Source: a virus. Taken from it: DNA of 20,115 nt. Positions 9,301 to 16,258 of this stretch are shown here, piece after piece; within the stretch, counting starts at the first letter, position 1; each line of letters starts with the position of its first letter. A program made the position numbers and the translations under genes. Under the pieces are notes generated by a model that was not told where the DNA came from, made no database searches, and saw only the letters and a list, made by a program, of their open reading frames with translations. Location: the IMG/VR virus record IMGVR_UViG_3300023171_000045, positions 1 to 20,115 of that record. One strand, given 5' to 3'.

Positions 9301-11217
9301 ATGGCCGGTGAAGGCGCAAAACTCGCAACCGGTTGGCTTGAGCTCACCGTCTCAACTAAGGGCGCGCAGAAGTCCATGACGGACGCGCTTATCCCCGGCG
9401 CGACAGCCACTGGAAACCGCGCCGGTGGGCTCCTTGGCGGGGGCCTACTCAGCGGGGCTAAGGGCGCAATCGCTCCTATCGCAGGCCTTGTTGCTGCGGC
9501 GTTCGCCACCGGTGTGATCGTGGACTGGGGGCAGGCTCAGGTCAAATCGCTGGCGCGCATCGAGACGATCAACACCCAGACCGCGACCGCGATCAAGTCG
9601 ACCGGTGGTGCAGCCGGAGTTACTGCCGAGCATGTTGAGGATCTGGCCGGGCGGCTCGAGAACCTGACGGCGACTGAAGCGGAGTCGATCCAGAAGGGCG
9701 CAAACCTCCTTCTGACTTTCAAGAACATCCGCAATGAGGCCGGCGAAGGCAACGATATCTTCGACCAGACCACGGTCGCCATGGTTGACATGGCCCGGGC
9801 CATGGGCACGGACGCCGAGGGCGGCGCGATCCAGCTTGGAAAAGCTCTCAACGACCCGATCAAGGGCATCGCTGCACTGGCTCGAGTCGGCATCACATTC
9901 ACAGAGGACCAGAAAGACCTGATCGCTACGCTGGTTGAGTCCGGCGAAGTGATGGAAGCCCAAAAGATCATTCTTGCGGAACTGAACTCGCAGTTTGGGG
10001 GCTCGGCACAGGCTTACGCGCAGACCTACGCCGGTAAAGTCGATCTCCTCGGGCACGCCTGGGGGACCTTCGGGGAGACCATCTTCCAGCAGGTCATGCC
10101 CGCGCTCGGGGCCCTCGCGGACTTCGGTACAGACAGCATCAATTGGCTCACCGAGTCACCGCAGATGGCAGAGTTCACGACCGGGATTCAGGGTCGGGTC
10201 GATCTGCTGCTGTATGCACTGCAGCAGATCCGCGACTCAGCTGATGGTTTCACGTTCGAGAACGTGCGCACCCAAATGGAGAACGCATTCCCCGGGCTGG
10301 AGGGCGTGTTCGACGTTCTTGCGGAGCTTGCCCCGCAGATGCCAGCGCTGCAGGACGCCCTTGTAGAAGTCGGCAAAGCCCTTGTTCCGGTCCTGCCCGC
10401 GCTGACGAAGATCGCTGTAGATGTTCTGCCGCTCCTGCCAGTCCTGCTCCCGGTCATTGTGGCCGGTTTGCAGCTGCTCTCTGATCTCCTTGTCGGGATC
10501 GGCCCGAAGTTCGAGAACGGAGCTTCGCAGTGGGAGGCCTCGTTCGCCCGGTGGGGCAACGGGCTCAACCAGATCATCAACTTCTTCAACGGTGTTGGAG
10601 CAGCATTCTCTAACGGCGGGCAGCAGCTCAACGATTTCTTCACCGGGCTTGGTGCTTCCTTCGAAAATGGGTGGCAGCAGATCGCCGGGTTCGGCCAGAA
10701 GGTCGGCGAGTTCTTCACTTCTCTGCCTGCCCAGATCATCGCCGCGCTGGGCAGCCTGGGCGGACTGCTGATCCAGTCCGGTCGCGACCTGATCGCTGGG
10801 TTCATTGCTGGCATCGGGAGCATGGCCGGGGACGTGGCTTCCGCGGTCGGCGGTGTGATGGGCAACGTCCTTGACTTCTTCCCCCACAGTCCCGCAAAGA
10901 CAGGCCCGCTGTCGGGCTCCGGATGGACCGACATCTTGACTTCGGGTGGGGCTCTGGGCGACCAGTACGCCGAGGGAATCCTTCGCTCTCAGGGCAAGGT
11001 GCAGTCGGCTATGACGCAGCTGACTAGCGGCGTACCCGTCCCCTCGCGTTTCGTGGCTGGCGATTCACGCCAGTACGCAACCGCACCCGGATCGGCAGGT
11101 GCGGCGGCTGGGCGGTCATTCACGCAGAACATCTACGGCGCGCCGAATCAGCCGCCGGAGACGATCGCGCGGATTGCTGCGGATAGCGCGAACTTCGAAG
11201 AGAGGCTGGCCGGCTGA
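9301..11217 (+). CDS. Tape measure protein
   Basis: 638-aa protein that sets tail length and later leaves with the DNA. By the usual 0.15 nm per residue the tail would be about 95 nm. A Gly/Ala hydrophobic segment GGLLGGGLLSGAKGAIAPIA lies near 42-61 and continues to about 75. Residues about 80-260 hold a TP901/lambda-type tape-measure domain (GGAIQLGKALNDPIKGIAAL, ARVGITFTEDQ). A hydrophobic helical stretch spans about 350-400, then G(I/V/L)GxxFxNG repeats at 399-407, 431-439 and 449-457. LDFFPHSPAKTGPLSGSGW near the C-terminus is a common tape-measure end motif. ATG 9301 follows GGTGGG. The stop overlaps the Dit-like gene (TGATG). No peptidase or lysozyme domain is seen. Confidence 0.95.
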   Translation: MAGEGAKLATGWLELTVSTKGAQKSMTDALIPGATATGNRAGGLLGGGLLSGAKGAIAPIAGLVAAAFATGVIVDWGQAQVKSLARIETINTQTATAIKSTGGAAGVTAEHVEDLAGRLENLTATEAESIQKGANLLLTFKNIRNEAGEGNDIFDQTTVAMVDMARAMGTDAEGGAIQLGKALNDPIKGIAALARVGITFTEDQKDLIATLVESGEVMEAQKIILAELNSQFGGSAQAYAQTYAGKVDLLGHAWGTFGETIFQQVMPALGALADFGTDSINWLTESPQMAEFTTGIQGRVDLLLYALQQIRDSADGFTFENVRTQMENAFPGLEGVFDVLAELAPQMPALQDALVEVGKALVPVLPALTKIAVDVLPLLPVLLPVIVAGLQLLSDLLVGIGPKFENGASQWEASFARWGNGLNQIINFFNGVGAAFSNGGQQLNDFFTGLGASFENGWQQIAGFGQKVGEFFTSLPAQIIAALGSLGGLLIQSGRDLIAGFIAGIGSMAGDVASAVGGVMGNVLDFFPHSPAKTGPLSGSGWTDILTSGGALGDQYAEGILRSQGKVQSAMTQLTSGVPVPSRFVAGDSRQYATAPGSAGAAAGRSFTQNIYGAPNQPPETIARIAADSANFEERLAG

Positions 11218-11996
11218 TGGCAGACCTGCTGCTCAAACTCGGACCAGTCGAATTTCGGACTGCCCGCATCTTAGGGACGTCCGGGTTCTTCTTGGCCCCC
11301 GATGGTTACGAGGGGATCGAATCGGGTGCTGACATGCGCCGGGAAGACCTGGATCTTCCGGTTGCTCACGGGTCATACGCGCTGGGCGGGAAGCTAAGCG
11401 ACCGGGTGATCAGCCTTTCAGGCACGGCGGTTGCTGATTCCCCTGAGGCACTAGCGGCCATGGGGCGCACCTTCACGGCGCTCTTGGCTGATGGCGGGCG
11501 CGGTCTGCTGAAGATCGGCCAGAACGAGTTGAACCTGTGGACCGAGGTGGGCCTTGCCTCTCGGACGAAGTTCATCACCGATGGCCTTGACCTCAAGGCA
11601 GCTGACTTCCAGATCCAGTTCACGGCTGCGGACCCTCGCCTGTATGGGGACATCAACCGTTTCGGTCCTGTGCCAGTCGGTTCGATTTTGACGCTCTCGC
11701 ATCGGGGCACGTTCCCTGCATCCCCACGCTTCACGATCAACGGGGCGTCTGCTGGCGGCTACACGATCGGTGGCCCGGACGGCAAACAGTTCGTGGTCAC
11801 CCAGCCTCTCGTCGCAGGCATCCCGCATGTCGTGGATTTCCGCAACAAGCGTCTGTACGTGAACGGTGTGCGTGTTCTCGGTGGCGTCGGGAACGCGACG
11901 ACGTGGCTGGTGAACCCTGGTCTGCCGACAACGGTCGTGACGATCACGGGTGGTACGGCGACTATCGCGGCTTCGGTTTTGAACACCTACATTTAG
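11217..11996 (+). CDS. Distal tail protein (Dit-like)
   Basis: 259-aa protein directly after the tape measure, the place of Dit, which forms the hexameric hub at the tail tip. The N-terminal half has ESGADMRREDLDLPVAHGSY and later ADFQIQFTAADPRLYGD (about 131-147), typical of the ring-forming domain of Dit and of lambda gpM/siphophage tail-tip proteins. The C-terminal half, from SHRGTFPASPRFTING on, is a beta-sandwich galectin-like region with HVVDFRNKRLYVNGVRV. The ATG overlaps the tape-measure stop by one base. Function is inferred from position plus the two-domain pattern. Confidence 0.85.
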   Translation: MADLLLKLGPVEFRTARILGTSGFFLAPDGYEGIESGADMRREDLDLPVAHGSYALGGKLSDRVISLSGTAVADSPEALAAMGRTFTALLADGGRGLLKIGQNELNLWTEVGLASRTKFITDGLDLKAADFQIQFTAADPRLYGDINRFGPVPVGSILTLSHRGTFPASPRFTINGASAGGYTIGGPDGKQFVVTQPLVAGIPHVVDFRNKRLYVNGVRVLGGVGNATTWLVNPGLPTTVVTITGGTATIAASVLNTYI

Positions 11997-12004
11997 GGGC
12001 TCGC

Positions 12005-13081
12005 GTGTACTCGTTCTCGTTCACGGACACTCAGACGGGTGAGACGCTTCTGAGTCTCGAAGAGGGCGAGATGCCTTCTGCTGGTTCGTTCGGTTCTCGT
12101 CTGAATGGGTTCGAGTCGGGGCAGCACACGTTCCAGCTTGGGGCGTCGGATCTGTCACGGTCGGATTGGCGTGAGCTCTCTGACCCGTGGCGTCGCACCA
12201 TTGACGTGGACTGGGATGGGGTGCCGGTTTTCTCGGGCCTGACGATGGGCTACAACTGGGACCGCAACACGGGTTCGTTGTCTATCGCGTCGGCGGAGGT
12301 GCGCACGATCCTTGCACGCCGCCACCTTTTCGGCATCGGCGGTTACGAGGCGGGCACGCGAGTCCTCAATTCGCGGTCTCTCCGCGGTCTGGTGTTGCAG
12401 CTGGTGTACCTGGCAACGCAGGGCGCATATTCGTCGGTGTGGGATCTGCCGTTCTACTTCCCCACCTTTGATGAGCTCGGCCCCCACGACCGGACTTACT
12501 GGAATTACCTGTTTGAGGATGCTGAACAGGCTATCTCTGAGGCGCAGGACACCGAGGGTGGCCCGGACGTGTACTTCAAACGCATCAAGACCGGCAACGT
12601 ACGCAGGTGGGAGGTGCAGGTTGGTGCGCCTCGTCTGGCTGGTCCGATGCGGGAGTTCATGCTGACCGGGGATGAGCCGAACGCTTTCAACGTGAAGGAA
12701 ACCGGTGACGGCACCCAGATGGTTACGGGTGTGTTCGCGATCGGTTCCGGTTCGGAGCAGGACATCCTCCACGGTGAGGCGGCAACGGTCGCTGTCCCTG
12801 GTGGTTACCCGTCGCTGGATGTAACCCGGCAGTATTCGAACATCGACAATGTCGCCCAGTTGGATGCGATGGCGCGGTCTGAACGTGACGTGTTCAAGTC
12901 GCCGACAGCTCAGTTGTCGTTCGACACGTTGGCGGGCGAGTTCTTCCCCGGTGGGCAGCCTGGTTCAACTGTGCGGGCTTGGTCGGACGGTGACTTGTTC
13001 ATCCCGGATGGGTGGCAGCAGAAGTACTGCATTGGGGTGCGTGGCGACATGAGCGAGATCATCAGTTTGGACGTGCAATGA
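12005..13081 (+). CDS. Tail-associated / baseplate hub protein (Tal-like minor tail protein)
   Basis: 358-aa protein second after the tape measure, where Tal or gp37-like hub proteins sit and form the tip below Dit. The N-terminus MYSFSFTDTQTGETLLSLEE and RRTIDVDWDGVPVFSGLTMG show the beta-rich hub domain. A middle helical part (TYWNYLFEDAEQAISEAQDT) and a later WEVQVGAPRLAG strand resemble siphophage Gp37-type tail proteins. The C-terminal third has VARQYSN-like and ARSERDVF helices ending in WQQKYCIGVRGDMSEIISLD. No cell-wall hydrolase motif is seen. GTG 12005 is preceded by AGGGG at 11995-11999; the longer frame back to 11903 overlaps the Dit-like gene without support. ATGA couples it to the next gene. 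Confidence 0.85.
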   Translation: MYSFSFTDTQTGETLLSLEEGEMPSAGSFGSRLNGFESGQHTFQLGASDLSRSDWRELSDPWRRTIDVDWDGVPVFSGLTMGYNWDRNTGSLSIASAEVRTILARRHLFGIGGYEAGTRVLNSRSLRGLVLQLVYLATQGAYSSVWDLPFYFPTFDELGPHDRTYWNYLFEDAEQAISEAQDTEGGPDVYFKRIKTGNVRRWEVQVGAPRLAGPMREFMLTGDEPNAFNVKETGDGTQMVTGVFAIGSGSEQDILHGEAATVAVPGGYPSLDVTRQYSNIDNVAQLDAMARSERDVFKSPTAQLSFDTLAGEFFPGGQPGSTVRAWSDGDLFIPDGWQQKYCIGVRGDMSEIISLDVQ

Positions 13082-14004
13082 GAATCGACAACCTGCGCGA
13101 CTCCCAGGCGGTGCGCACACGCAAACAGGTCAAGGCTTTGGGGACGCGGGCACCTATCGGGGACTCATCAATAACAACCCCGGGCAAACGGCTGCGGGTC
13201 GGGTCTGTAGGTGCCGGCGGCTATCTCGAGGCGGGGGGGCGTCTTTATTGGCAGGGGCCAGTTGAGTTCGTTGGAGAAGTACTGCTAGACGGCAGCGTAA
13301 CGATCACCTTGACGCTTGACGTGACCGGTGATGCCCGTTTCGGTGCAAACACCGAAATCGAGGGGAACCTTGACGTTTCGGCGGAGACAATCCTTCGCGG
13401 CTTGACTACGCTTCAGAACGACCTCCAGGTGGATGCTGGTGGTTCGATCAAGGTTGGTACCGGCCTGACGATTACGCCTGGCGGTTCTTACGGGGGCGAG
13501 ATCGTCGCAGGCGGCGTTGGCGTCCTCCACCTCGTCGCGGCTAACGTTCTTGCGAGCGAGTACATCTCAGCGGATGGCTTGTCCATTGGAGCGCTTGGGG
13601 CCACGATCCTCGGTGACTTCACCGTGTTCGGCGCGAAGTCTTTCGGCATCGAACACCCCGCCAAGCCTGGAGTGCTCCTCCGCCATTCGGCCACCGAGTC
13701 TCCAGTGTCGGGCACTGAGTATGTTGGCTCCGATCTCTTCGGCGAAGACGGCCGGTGCCTCATTGCTCTCCCTGACTACTTCGAGAGCCTGAACAAGCCC
13801 GACAACCGATTCGTGTTCATCACGCCGATCGGGCAACCTTTCGCAACGGGAGCCGAGCCGGTACAAAACGGCTCCTTCGTTGCCTACGGCGAACCTGGCC
13901 GGTCATTTTCTTGGCTGGTCAAAGCTGAGCGTGTTGGCGGCGATTTCGACGTCGAATCGCCTATGCCCGAACGGCCTGTTCAGGAATCGAACTCCGGGCA
14001 GTAG
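13078..14004 (+). CDS. Minor tail protein with beta-repeat shaft and fibre-type C-terminal module
   Basis: 308-aa protein. After a basic N-terminus (RTRKQVKALGTRAP), residues about 36-182 form short hydrophobic strands with Gly turns (VTGDARFGANTEIEGNLDVS, LQVDAGGSIKVGTGLTITPG), suggesting a trimeric beta-helix-like shaft. Residues about 187-294 match a module seen at the end of tail-fibre and some non-phage surface proteins: KSFGIEHPAKPG, LLRHSATESPVSGTEYVG, CLIALPDYFESLN, FITPIGQP and GEPGRSFSWLVKAERVGGDF. It probably trimerises or contacts the host surface. ATG 13078 overlaps the upstream stop (ATGA). Its last 25 nt overlap the end of the oppositely oriented lipoprotein gene. Confidence 0.82.
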   Translation: MRIDNLRDSQAVRTRKQVKALGTRAPIGDSSITTPGKRLRVGSVGAGGYLEAGGRLYWQGPVEFVGEVLLDGSVTITLTLDVTGDARFGANTEIEGNLDVSAETILRGLTTLQNDLQVDAGGSIKVGTGLTITPGGSYGGEIVAGGVGVLHLVAANVLASEYISADGLSIGALGATILGDFTVFGAKSFGIEHPAKPGVLLRHSATESPVSGTEYVGSDLFGEDGRCLIALPDYFESLNKPDNRFVFITPIGQPFATGAEPVQNGSFVAYGEPGRSFSWLVKAERVGGDFDVESPMPERPVQESNSGQ

Positions 14005-14399
14005 ATCTTCGCAGCCCATGTTGCGATGGCGAGGCTGTTACGGAAGTAGCCGGTTGCTTCGTCAACCTGTTCGCCTTCGATGACTCGGATATCGAGCTTG
14101 GTCTGGCCCTGTCGGTAGTAGTCGCAAGCCAACTGGCCCGCAGCTACAAGCTGCTCGTCGGTGTAGCTCTCGAGGTTTAGGCCTCGCTCGCGGACCGCGG
14201 CAACGTACTCCGCGCTTCCGGCTACTGCCGGCGCTGCGGTTGGGGCCTCGAGAGGCGCTGCGACCGGTTCGGGTGTCTCGACGGGCGCAACGGCCTCGGG
14301 CGTCACGGTCACGGTTTCGACCGGCGCAGGTTCGGCGCTTGTGCACCCGGTGAGCAGCAGTGCCCCCGCGATCGCCGCGGCGACCCCCAGTTTCTTCAT
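13980..14399 (-). CDS. Lipoprotein with DUF732-like C-terminal region (phage moron)
   Basis: 139-aa protein, the only gene on the - strand. MKK, a hydrophobic stretch and LTGC with Cys 19 form a clear type II signal peptide. About 40 residues rich in Pro, Ala, Val and Glu follow as a wall-spanning linker, then a small helical domain (about 62-139) with AEYVAAVRERGLNLESYT, ACDYYRQG (Cys 92) and AAKIYCPEF (Cys 134). Two Cys with YCP near the end recall DUF732 secreted actinobacterial proteins. It should sit on the outer face of the membrane. The start at 14399 gives the best signal peptide; 14411 adds MIRG. Neither has a good ribosome site. Orientation opposite to all neighbours suggests separate expression, perhaps in lysogeny. 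Superinfection exclusion is a hypothesis only. Confidence 0.85.
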   Translation of the reverse strand: MKKLGVAAAIAGALLLTGCTSAEPAPVETVTVTPEAVAPVETPEPVAAPLEAPTAAPAVAGSAEYVAAVRERGLNLESYTDEQLVAAGQLACDYYRQGQTKLDIRVIEGEQVDEATGYFRNSLAIATWAAKIYCPEFDS

Positions 14400-14412
14400 G
14401 CCCCGAATCATA

Positions 14413-14428
14413 CGGCTGAACGCAGCCG
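14413..14428 (-). promoter_or_regulatory. Perfect 6-bp hairpin ahead of the lipoprotein gene
   Basis: CGGCTG (14413-14418) and CAGCCG (14423-14428) flank AACG. It lies immediately before the upper candidate start of the lipoprotein gene on the - strand, and between that start and the candidate -10. It may act as an operator or leader hairpin. There is no T-run on either strand next to it. Confidence 0.35.
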
Positions 14429-14460
14429 ATTAATAGAGCTTCTTGGAGGCGTGATGGCAA
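14429..14460 (-). promoter_or_regulatory. Weak candidate promoter for the lipoprotein gene
   Basis: Read on the - strand, TTGCCA (14460 to 14455) resembles a -35 box (5 of 6 to TTGACA) and TATTAAT (14435 to 14429) an AT-rich -10, with 19 bp between, longer than ideal. AT-rich sequence is rare in this window, which makes it stand out. It overlaps the ribosome site of the + strand gene at 14454, so the two directions would interfere. Confidence 0.25.
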
Positions 14461-14903
14461 CGGTCACATTCAACCTGGCGCAGATCACAGGCTCACCACT
14501 CACCGGTCTAGAACCACGGGTGTACGTGCTGTTGCCGCACAACGTTGCGTACCAGAGCTCTGTGGTCGTAACGCGACCAGCGCCTGTGACTCCTGATTCG
14601 TTCGGTAACGGTTCGGTGAGCCTCATACCGCAGGCGTACATGCGCGGGACTGGTGGAAGCCTGCGGGTGCCGAATTACCGGTTCAAGGTCGAATGGTTGG
14701 ACTCTTCCGGTCAGCCTGGCGTGCCCGAGTATCCGGACTTTGAGTTCCGTGTCCCTCCTGAGGGTGGGGCGCTTGAGGACATGATCGTCACCCGCCCGTC
14801 CGCGTTTGAGACGTGGATCGGGACAACGCCACCTCCTGAGCTTGGCAGTTACCTGTGGTGGTTCAACCCGGTCACCGGGAACTTCTTCGAATGGAGCGAC
14901 TGA
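14454..14903 (+). CDS. Small beta-rich minor tail protein
   Basis: 149-aa protein with no recognised catalytic motif. It alternates strands and turns: ATVTFNLAQITGSPLTGLEP, VYVLLPHNVAYQSSVVVTRP, GSVSLIPQAYMRG, YRFKVEWLDSSGQP and EFRVPPEGG, ending with an aromatic patch LWWFNPVTGNFFEWSD. It looks like a baseplate or fibre-adaptor Ig/jelly-roll protein. GGAGG at 14445-14449 lies 4 nt before ATG 14454; a GTG at 14451 is the alternative. The stop TGA overlaps the next ATG (TGATG), so the SGNH protein downstream is probably made together with it. Position next to fibre genes supports a tail-tip role. Confidence 0.75.
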   Translation: MATVTFNLAQITGSPLTGLEPRVYVLLPHNVAYQSSVVVTRPAPVTPDSFGNGSVSLIPQAYMRGTGGSLRVPNYRFKVEWLDSSGQPGVPEYPDFEFRVPPEGGALEDMIVTRPSAFETWIGTTPPPELGSYLWWFNPVTGNFFEWSD

Positions 14904-16258
14904 TGACCTGGGAATACAAAGGCAATCTCAAGGGCCCTCGTGGTGAGCGTGGCACGCAGGGTCTCCCTGGTTTGAATGCTGAGGCGACTGATGCTGGTGT
15001 GGCCGCGTATGTGTCTGCTGATGTGTCGGCGACGTCGACTGCGGTGAAGAACCTTATCGGTGAGCTGACTGGTGTGAACCCGGAGACGTACGCGTATAAC
15101 GTGCACGAGGGCAACATGGGGATCATTCGTAACGCTCTGCGGAATGGGAACGCCCGAATTTCGGTGCATGGTTCGTCTACCCCGTACGGGCACTCGTCTG
15201 GAACCCCGTACCTGTACACGTCGTACACGGGGCGTTTGAACCGCATCATGGCTGGACGGTTTGGTCCTAAGGGGCCGGGGATGATGATCCCGTGGGAGTT
15301 TTACGTTCCCCCGTATGAGCTGCAGACGTTCAACCGCAACTACTTCTTCGGTGGCACGTATGAGGCGCGCCCGTTTGGTATTTACACGCATGGTGCGATC
15401 CGCATCACGGGCACTACGTCGTTCATTGGCGTGCGCGATGTTGACTGTGATGGTTTCCGTGTGATCTTCGCCGGACCTGTCGGGGGTGGCACTGCGACCG
15501 TTTCGGTTGATGGGGTTTCGGTGGGCACTGTGCCGACGTCGCCGGATACGACGGGGACGACGTTTACGAAGGAGTCGGGGTACGCGTTCGATTCGGTGTC
15601 TGGTACCGGGCAGGTGTCGGTTGTTATTCCGGCTGTTCCGAAGGGTGACCATACTCTGACGATTTCGCCGAACACGGTGGGTGGTGCGGCGGCGTTCACG
15701 GTTCTGTCGATCGAACCTTTGGTGCGTACCCGCCCGGGTGTGGTTGTGAGCAACCTGGCTTTGTCGGGGCAGTCGTTGGGGCTCGCGTCTTTGACTACCT
15801 CGGATACGTCGAATGGGTTCCAGGGCATGTCCGTGTCGATGGACGCGCCTCGAGCGCACCTGAACATTGGACAGTTCGGGACCATTGACTACATCGATCA
15901 GGTGCCGATTGCGACGTTCAAGACGAATCTTGGACGGTGGATTGACCGGTCACGTTCTGCGACACCTGTTGCGAATGGTGGGACGAAGATCGCGGCCGAC
16001 GCACTGCTGGTGGCGGGTCAGCCGATCAACGAAGCAGCGTACCCGGCAACATCGGGTATCCCGTTCTCGGCGTACACCACCGCCTCCTACGAGGTTGCTG
16101 CTGCCTACGATGCGCCTCTGTTGGATCTCACCGAACTTTTCGTGTCGTATGCGGCCGGTGTTGCGAAGGATCTGTACGCGGACGACCTGCATTTGAAGCC
16201 GATCGGTCACGAGATGATCGCGAAGGCTGTTGACCGCGTTGTGATGCTGGAGGTGTGA
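14903..16258 (+). CDS. Tail protein with SGNH/GDSL-type hydrolase domain
   Basis: 451-aa protein. A short collagen-like stub GPRGERGTQGLPG (11-23) leads to a hydrolase core. ISVHGSSTPYGH (86-97) fits block I with Ser 92 as nucleophile. NLALSGQSLG (284-293) resembles block II. YADDLHLKPIGHEMI near 425-439 supplies the Asp 427 / His 430 pair. Block III is degenerate (GQFGTID at 323-329 in place of GxND). Residues about 155-265 are a beta-rich insert (VIFAGPVGGGTATVSVDGVS) that may bind glycans. Likely role: deacylating or trimming a surface polysaccharide during adsorption. GGAG at 14893-14896 supports ATG 14903 over ATG 14891. The substrate cannot be deduced. Confidence 0.85.
   Translation: MTWEYKGNLKGPRGERGTQGLPGLNAEATDAGVAAYVSADVSATSTAVKNLIGELTGVNPETYAYNVHEGNMGIIRNALRNGNARISVHGSSTPYGHSSGTPYLYTSYTGRLNRIMAGRFGPKGPGMMIPWEFYVPPYELQTFNRNYFFGGTYEARPFGIYTHGAIRITGTTSFIGVRDVDCDGFRVIFAGPVGGGTATVSVDGVSVGTVPTSPDTTGTTFTKESGYAFDSVSGTGQVSVVIPAVPKGDHTLTISPNTVGGAAAFTVLSIEPLVRTRPGVVVSNLALSGQSLGLASLTTSDTSNGFQGMSVSMDAPRAHLNIGQFGTIDYIDQVPIATFKTNLGRWIDRSRSATPVANGGTKIAADALLVAGQPINEAAYPATSGIPFSAYTTASYEVAAAYDAPLLDLTELFVSYAAGVAKDLYADDLHLKPIGHEMIAKAVDRVVMLEV

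Follow-up and report, generated by a model that had tools for sequence, protein, structure and literature searches.

The 20,115-bp stretch analysed here (IMG/VR record IMGVR_UViG_3300023171_000045; hereafter the window) is a viral contig from an actinobacterial siphovirus and carries its head and tail genes, among which a single minus-strand gene for a small lipoprotein lies between minor tail genes of the opposite orientation. We found that this gene is part of a conserved cassette, composed of (i) an unusual promoter motif, (ii) a predicted leaderless gene for a DUF732 lipoprotein and (iii) a fixed junction in the tail gene chain, and that the cassette recurs in six further phages. The cassette and its conserved promoter are new, while the kind of element, a lysogenic-conversion lipoprotein moron, is known; the gene is thus better defined than when first noted. 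The anatomy and conservation of the cassette are, in our judgement, nearly certain. In the reading that we favour (probability about 0.5), it is a lysogenic-conversion gene whose product most likely acts in the cell envelope to exclude superinfecting phages.

In translation the gene reads MKKLGVAAAIAGALLLTGC, then a stretch rich in Pro and Ala, and lastly a C-terminal domain finishing in AKIYCPEFDS. Its codon-position GC content (0.70/0.51/0.74) is the same as that of the real genes of the window, whereas the remaining long minus-strand open reading frames (ORFs) display a shadow pattern, so the initial annotation was correct in recognizing one minus-strand gene. The lipobox LTGC with its Cys at position 19, described at the same time, is present in the 139-aa ORF as counted from 14399. 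An in-frame ATG at 14411 would give 143 aa (the ORF was listed as 13980-14411), yet this position falls within the -10 box. The span originally given, 13980-14460, has to be shortened: the gene itself occupies 13980-14399, positions 14400-14433 constitute the promoter, and 14434-14460 belong to the tail gene that follows, holding its ribosome-binding site and start. No other lipobox-type ORF of at least 80 aa is present in the window; whole-window shuffles gave 3 in 20.

The window protein has a positive N-terminus, a hydrophobic core and a lipobox of the form [LVI][ASTVI][GAS]C, as expected of a bacterial lipoprotein, and is a predicted substrate of signal peptidase II. Its two-Cys domain had been said to recall DUF732, and structure prediction and a family search had been suggested as checks. 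Both bear the idea out: residues 64-136 match DUF732 (PF05305) with a Pfam score of 26.3 bits (gathering score 22.4), and AlphaFold2 yields a confident three-helix C-terminal domain (mean predicted local distance difference test score, pLDDT, 94.8). DUF732 is a common secreted-protein family in mycobacteria, and its hallmark, two conserved Cys residues within a helical domain (C92 and C134), is found in 7/7 homologues. The named top matches in a Foldseek search against viral models were nearly all DUF732 phage proteins, while the same domain gave no meaningful match in the PDB and has no solved relative there. Matches of the window protein to Cor, Rz1 and LysC profiles were rejected, as the alignments were confined to the signal peptide and linker (for phrog_1119, Cor, residues 5-33 only, E 0.003), and PADLOC defence models matched none of the four homologues examined.

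In each of six further viral contigs (G001-G006) a minus-strand secreted protein, 23-41% identical (19-26% in one case), is encoded at the same tail junction; of the kind of survey of related phages proposed with the initial annotation, the opposite outcome, absence of the gene, was seen in Glutamicibacter phage BV-113. A search of viral contigs in which the adjacent minor tail protein, and not the lipoprotein, served as bait brought up G001 and G002, two contigs under one isolate-genome identifier (the minor tail protein is ~50% identical). They belong to the same isolate dataset, IMG 2910241274, and probably to one host, and their lipoprotein copies are 41% identical to each other. G003 is a metagenomic phage, reached through a back-translated tail motif. 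All three, which were found through the tail protein and hence independently of the promoter, have, at the homologous junction, a minus-strand gene for a lipoprotein that shares 27-34% identity with the window protein. Where compared, the flanking tail proteins are similarly diverged (33-37%), which argues that the lipoprotein gene was retained while its surroundings changed. G004 encodes a minus-strand lipoprotein (lipobox LTAC) flanked by tail genes of the same kind, and G005, like G001 and G002, comes from a sequenced isolate, in its case IMG 2546826728.

The DUF732 profile is matched above the cut-off by the proteins of G001 (34.3 bits), G002 (39.2 bits) and G006 (25.1 bits), and below it by those of G003 (19.9 bits) and G004 (16.9 bits); the G005 homologue gave no DUF732 match in the profile search. 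Seven positions are invariant in 7/7 proteins (M1, K3, L4, G5, C92, G98 and C134), and P49 is likewise invariant in the alignment. The lipobox Cys is retained in 6/7; in G005 it is replaced by Ser within an ordinary AxA-type signal peptide, so that this homologue (L039:6311-6646, minus strand) is probably secreted rather than lipid-anchored. In tblastn searches of 50,697 phage records the window, G001 and G003 proteins returned nothing, and the G002 protein gave just weak DUF732 matches (best E ~0.03) and chance matches. A plasmid search produced a single match, judged to be due to chance, and both scans of genome contigs found no relative. G001 also carries a second putative lipoprotein gene (MNRRGSAFAACGIASVLVLTGC...; L025:1988-2437, minus strand) with a leaderless-type -10 box, located towards that end of the prophage where the integrase lies.

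The start codon of the lipoprotein gene is preceded by the arrangement TANNNT-(TCGGGGC or TCGGGC)-ATG, in which the -10 box reads TATGAT in the window and TACACT, TACACT and TAGGAT in the three phages found through the tail protein. With this spacing, transcription should begin on the A of the ATG, and a leaderless mRNA is therefore predicted; leaderless mRNAs are common in actinobacteria. TANNNT at this distance precedes merely 0.3-1.3% of the ATGs in these genomes, and together with TTAAT it marks one ATG per genome, in every case that of the lipoprotein gene. The complete TTAAT-N16-TANNNT pattern (chance expectation 0.02 per window) occurs in the window once, at this gene; it is found once per cassette phage, in 0/5 comparator phages and not at all in a reversed-pattern control. 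A scan of viral contigs with the promoter motif only recovered G001, G002 and G003, the new phage G004 and one AT-rich chance hit. In a relaxed scan, spacers of 14-18 and 4-9 nt were allowed and an M-x-K-L-G start was required; it added G005 and G006, the rest of the new matches being AT-rich phages with unrelated frames. All cassettes found, including those of the relaxed scan, have a spacer of 16 nt and 6-7 nt to the ATG. The gene type and the junction were not built into either scan, nor were the exact spacings into the relaxed one. A scan with the -10 motif only gave mostly chance matches beyond the cassette phages, and a sigma-70 consensus scan found no promoter at the standard threshold, since TTAAT is not TTGACA-like.

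The promoter spacers of most of the seven phages (window 14413-14428) contain GC-rich inverted repeats of differing sequence, possibly an operator or an RNA hairpin. The joint excess of such dyads was reached in 0/3000 shuffles, although the phages are related and so not independent. As an operator of the phage repressor the dyad was discarded, since neither the rest of the window nor G001 or G002 contains close copies of it. In G003 (40669, plus strand) and G001 (40477, plus strand), leaderless genes located close to the early region, one of them repressor-like, have TTGACA-like -35 boxes, unlike TTAAT.

Table 1. Positions of the cassette and the adjoining tail genes in the window.
Feature	Position	Strand	Basis or remark
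TMP	9301-11217	+	tail-gene chain
Dit	11217-11996	+	tail-gene chain
Minor tail	11903-13081	+	tail-gene chain
Upstream tail gene	13078-14004	+	stop overlaps lipoprotein stop by 25 nt (13980-14004)
Lipoprotein gene, 139 aa, predicted leaderless ATG start at 14399	13980-14399	-	ORF list and sequence
DUF732 domain, residues 64-136	13992-14210	-	Pfam and AlphaFold2 model
Invariant Cys92 (14124-14126) and Cys134 (13998-14000), candidate disulfide	within DUF732 domain	-	alignment of 7
Pro/Ala/Thr/Glu-rich linker, ~42 residues, predicted disordered	14217-14342	-	sequence and low pLDDT
Signal peptide and lipobox L-T-G-C; predicted lipidated Cys19 (codon 14343-14345)	14343-14399	-	sequence; lipobox Cys in 6/7 homologues
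-10 box TATGAT (TANNNT in 7/7 phages), 7 nt before ATG (6-7 nt in all)	14407-14412	-	alignment
GC-rich dyad CGGCTG-cgtt-CAGCCG across the whole spacer; perhaps an operator or RNA hairpin (suggestive)	14413-14428	-	sequence
TTAAT element at -35 position, exactly 16 nt before -10 box in 7/7 phages	14429-14433	-	alignment
Downstream tail gene, start ATG 14454 or GTG 14451; Shine-Dalgarno sequence ggagg 14445-14449	14454-14903	+	divergent from lipoprotein gene
GDSL/collagen-like tail protein	14855-16258	+	tail-gene chain

BV-113 encodes homologues of both flanking tail genes with a 66-aa rightward (plus-strand) ORF and no lipoprotein between them, from which we conclude that the gene is an optional insert, i.e., a moron. 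Three other phages considered as empty sites (Galaxy, DrSierra and Shambre1) were dropped, their flanking tail genes not being demonstrably homologous, and BV-113 was the sole one used. A promoter of its own, the further mark of a moron, is present at the level of sequence, the gene lying on the opposite strand behind the motif conserved in seven phages (TTAAT-N16-TANNNT-6/7-ATG).

As the window is a viral contig of 20,115 bp, prophage status is not demonstrable from it alone. Tyrosine-integrase matches were found in 6/6 relatives, the one in G004 being weak and at the contig end. The own promoter, conserved at the same spot in six distantly related phages, suggests that the protein is made by the dormant prophage, as supposed when the gene was first noted, and we consider lysogenic expression likely. 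The closest precedent is gp40 of the cluster K phage Adephagia (JF704105 gene 40; L063:5817-6119, minus strand), which published RNA-seq of the lysogen describes as "relatively strongly expressed" (PMC11373665). This gene resembles that of the window in its DUF732 domain (40.4 bits), reverse orientation, leaderless-type TANNNT box (TAGGCT, exactly 7 nt before a GTG) and predicted secreted product, and also in its position, close to where the structural/lysis arm ends on the right. It differs in lying beside the integrase gene rather than between tail genes and in that its signal peptide lacks the lipobox Cys; a TTAAT-N16 element was not noted in it, and it is not toxic. Both the assignment to DUF732 and the match to a leaderless start are new here, earlier annotation having been hypothetical or LprJ-like.

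Since the predicted promoter is directed into the tail operon from the opposite side and a terminator was not found, the minus-strand transcript could itself be functional, damping the tail genes of the lysogen by antisense action or transcription interference with the protein as a secondary product; leftward reading beyond Adephagia gp40 runs on antisense to genes 37-39. We regard this as very unlikely, given the clear constraint on the protein: an M-[KR]-K-L-G start, a signal peptide, the invariant C92, G98 and C134, the DUF732 profile and a coding GC pattern. Another timing of expression is also conceivable, in which the gene fires on DNA entry and its product, in the manner of T5 Llp, shields the infected cell and the progeny from re-adsorption, lysogeny being incidental. 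Most other phage DUF732 genes do lie in early operons (PMC8612146), and the difference between TTAAT and the TTGACA-like boxes that precede leaderless genes in the repressor regions of G001 and G003 may reflect different regulation. The integrase matches in all relatives and the lysogenic expression of Adephagia gp40 nevertheless make an early lytic role improbable, and the spacer dyad, not being repeated near the immunity region, gives no indication of phage-repressor control.

For the favoured reading, superinfection exclusion by a lysogenic-conversion gene, we propose four steps. TTAAT-N16-TANNNT would start a leaderless mRNA at ATG 14399, independently of the rightward late tail transcript; the gene would be transcribed in the silent prophage, for which Adephagia provides an experimental precedent; the product, as predicted from its sequence, would be exported, lipidated at Cys19 and held by the flexible linker on the outside of the membrane, so that its small three-helix DUF732 domain, stabilised by a disulfide, is displayed within the cell wall; and there it might, in the least certain step, interfere with a later stage of infection (use of the receptor or entry of the DNA) by phages whose tail tips are related. 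The exclusion function is favoured on account of the prophage-type promoter, predicted surface export, linkage to tail-tip genes and the precedent of Ltp, and is the best-supported guess, held at slightly less than even odds. The hosts of the cassette phages are probably single-membrane actinobacteria; if they are, as is likely, also thick-walled, the ~42-residue linker would keep the domain near the membrane, which would fit a block of DNA entry better than surface masking.

Ltp of phage TP-J34 is a prophage-expressed lipoprotein of a Gram-positive host which blocks DNA injection (PMC3952083). It shares with the window protein the temperate phage background, the Gram-positive host, a lipoprotein location outside the membrane (predicted for the window protein), a flexible linker and a small helical domain; it is transcribed in the prophage (PMC3952083), as is likely for the window gene. 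Ltp differs in the domain itself and in its gene belonging to the lysogeny module. The Llp proteins of T5 (llp-oad) and BF23 (llp-hrs) are encoded next to receptor-binding-protein genes, much as the window gene lies beside tail genes, and are small lipoproteins with a disulfide (Cys11-Cys58 in T5 Llp), for which the window protein has a candidate (PMC4728585, PMC9586334). They differ in that the phages are virulent, the host is Gram-negative and the target is an outer-membrane transporter; no match to the window protein in sequence or fold was found. The comparison with Llp and Ltp drawn by the initial annotation therefore holds to the extent that the protein may work like them, and fails as family identity: no Ltp Pfam match was found, searches of the PDB by fold and by sequence did not lead to Ltp, the genome location is different, and the Cor hit covers only the signal peptide.

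It is a distinct possibility that the lipoprotein instead serves the fitness of the lysogen, altering the host wall or surface (stress, adhesion, signalling or nutrient binding) with no anti-phage role, and that the tail junction is a tolerated docking site. The data on a self-promoted prophage gene fit this equally, and such a role agrees with the abundance of DUF732 among secreted mycobacterial proteins, the G005 version without a lipid anchor, the high divergence of the sequences and the lack of a PADLOC match. A fixed spot by the tail-tip genes in seven phages whose products are 19-41% identical, however, exceeds what chance docking would give, and the neighbourhood resembles those of llp-oad and llp-hrs, although common ancestry of the tail module would explain the position just as well.

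Several further points weigh against superinfection exclusion by a lysogenic-conversion gene. To our knowledge, no biochemical function of DUF732 has been described. The relatives are few (six), and the promoter match of G004-G006, found by the promoter pattern, is partly by construction. TTAAT is a non-canonical -35 element, and no intrinsic terminator-like site is present in 13000-15000 under an E. coli-type rule. No sequence match to Llp or Cor extends past the signal peptide, and kinship with Ltp is likewise missing. Because G005 and Adephagia gp40 have no lipobox Cys, tethering is not essential to the family. Nor is DUF732 tied to exclusion, as other phage members are encoded in early lytic operons near whiB (Redi, Finkle) (PMC8612146) and Troll4 gp76 is growth-inhibitory (PMC7474061). 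Redi gp45 and Troll4 gp76 are of the same DUF732 family as the window protein; they differ in belonging to a rightward early operon near whiB/recET, with no promoter of their own implied and some being growth-inhibitory (PMC7474061, PMC8612146).

The analysis turns a single odd gene into a searchable cassette (promoter motif and predicted leaderless DUF732 lipoprotein gene at a fixed tail junction), whose motif has already predicted a further member, and the promoter could mark lysogen-expressed genes hidden in structural operons. Should the product exclude phages, this would be the first function for DUF732, a large family in actinobacteria and their phages, and the arrangement would be a Gram-positive counterpart of the module of receptor-binding protein and Llp in coliphages T5 and BF23. 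A more general proposal, that the cassette is an exclusion module linked to the tail genes of temperate actinobacterial phages, its DUF732 lipoprotein being specific to the tail tip encoded alongside and its promoter belonging to a distinct class active in the silent prophage, is speculative and, at present, rather unlikely to hold in full.

The position of the gene, wedged between tail genes and overlapping the upstream one stop to stop by 25 nt (ending at 14004), was confirmed as first described. Such an overlap is present in 7/7 phages; it measures 25 nt in the window, 28 nt in G006 and 4 nt in the other five. In G001, G002, G003 and G004 a shared CTAG joins the tail and lipoprotein genes, the two stop codons overlapping by 4 nt. 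Residues 177-274 of the ORF 13012-14004 (FGIEHPAKPGVLLRHSATESPVSGTEYVG region), which includes the upstream tail protein (13078-14004, plus strand), match phrog_17490; the G001 homologue of this tail protein stops short of that module. A plus-strand ORF at the right contig end (18708-20087), Ser/Pro-rich and then lectin-like, had no PHROG match and probably encodes another tail fibre.
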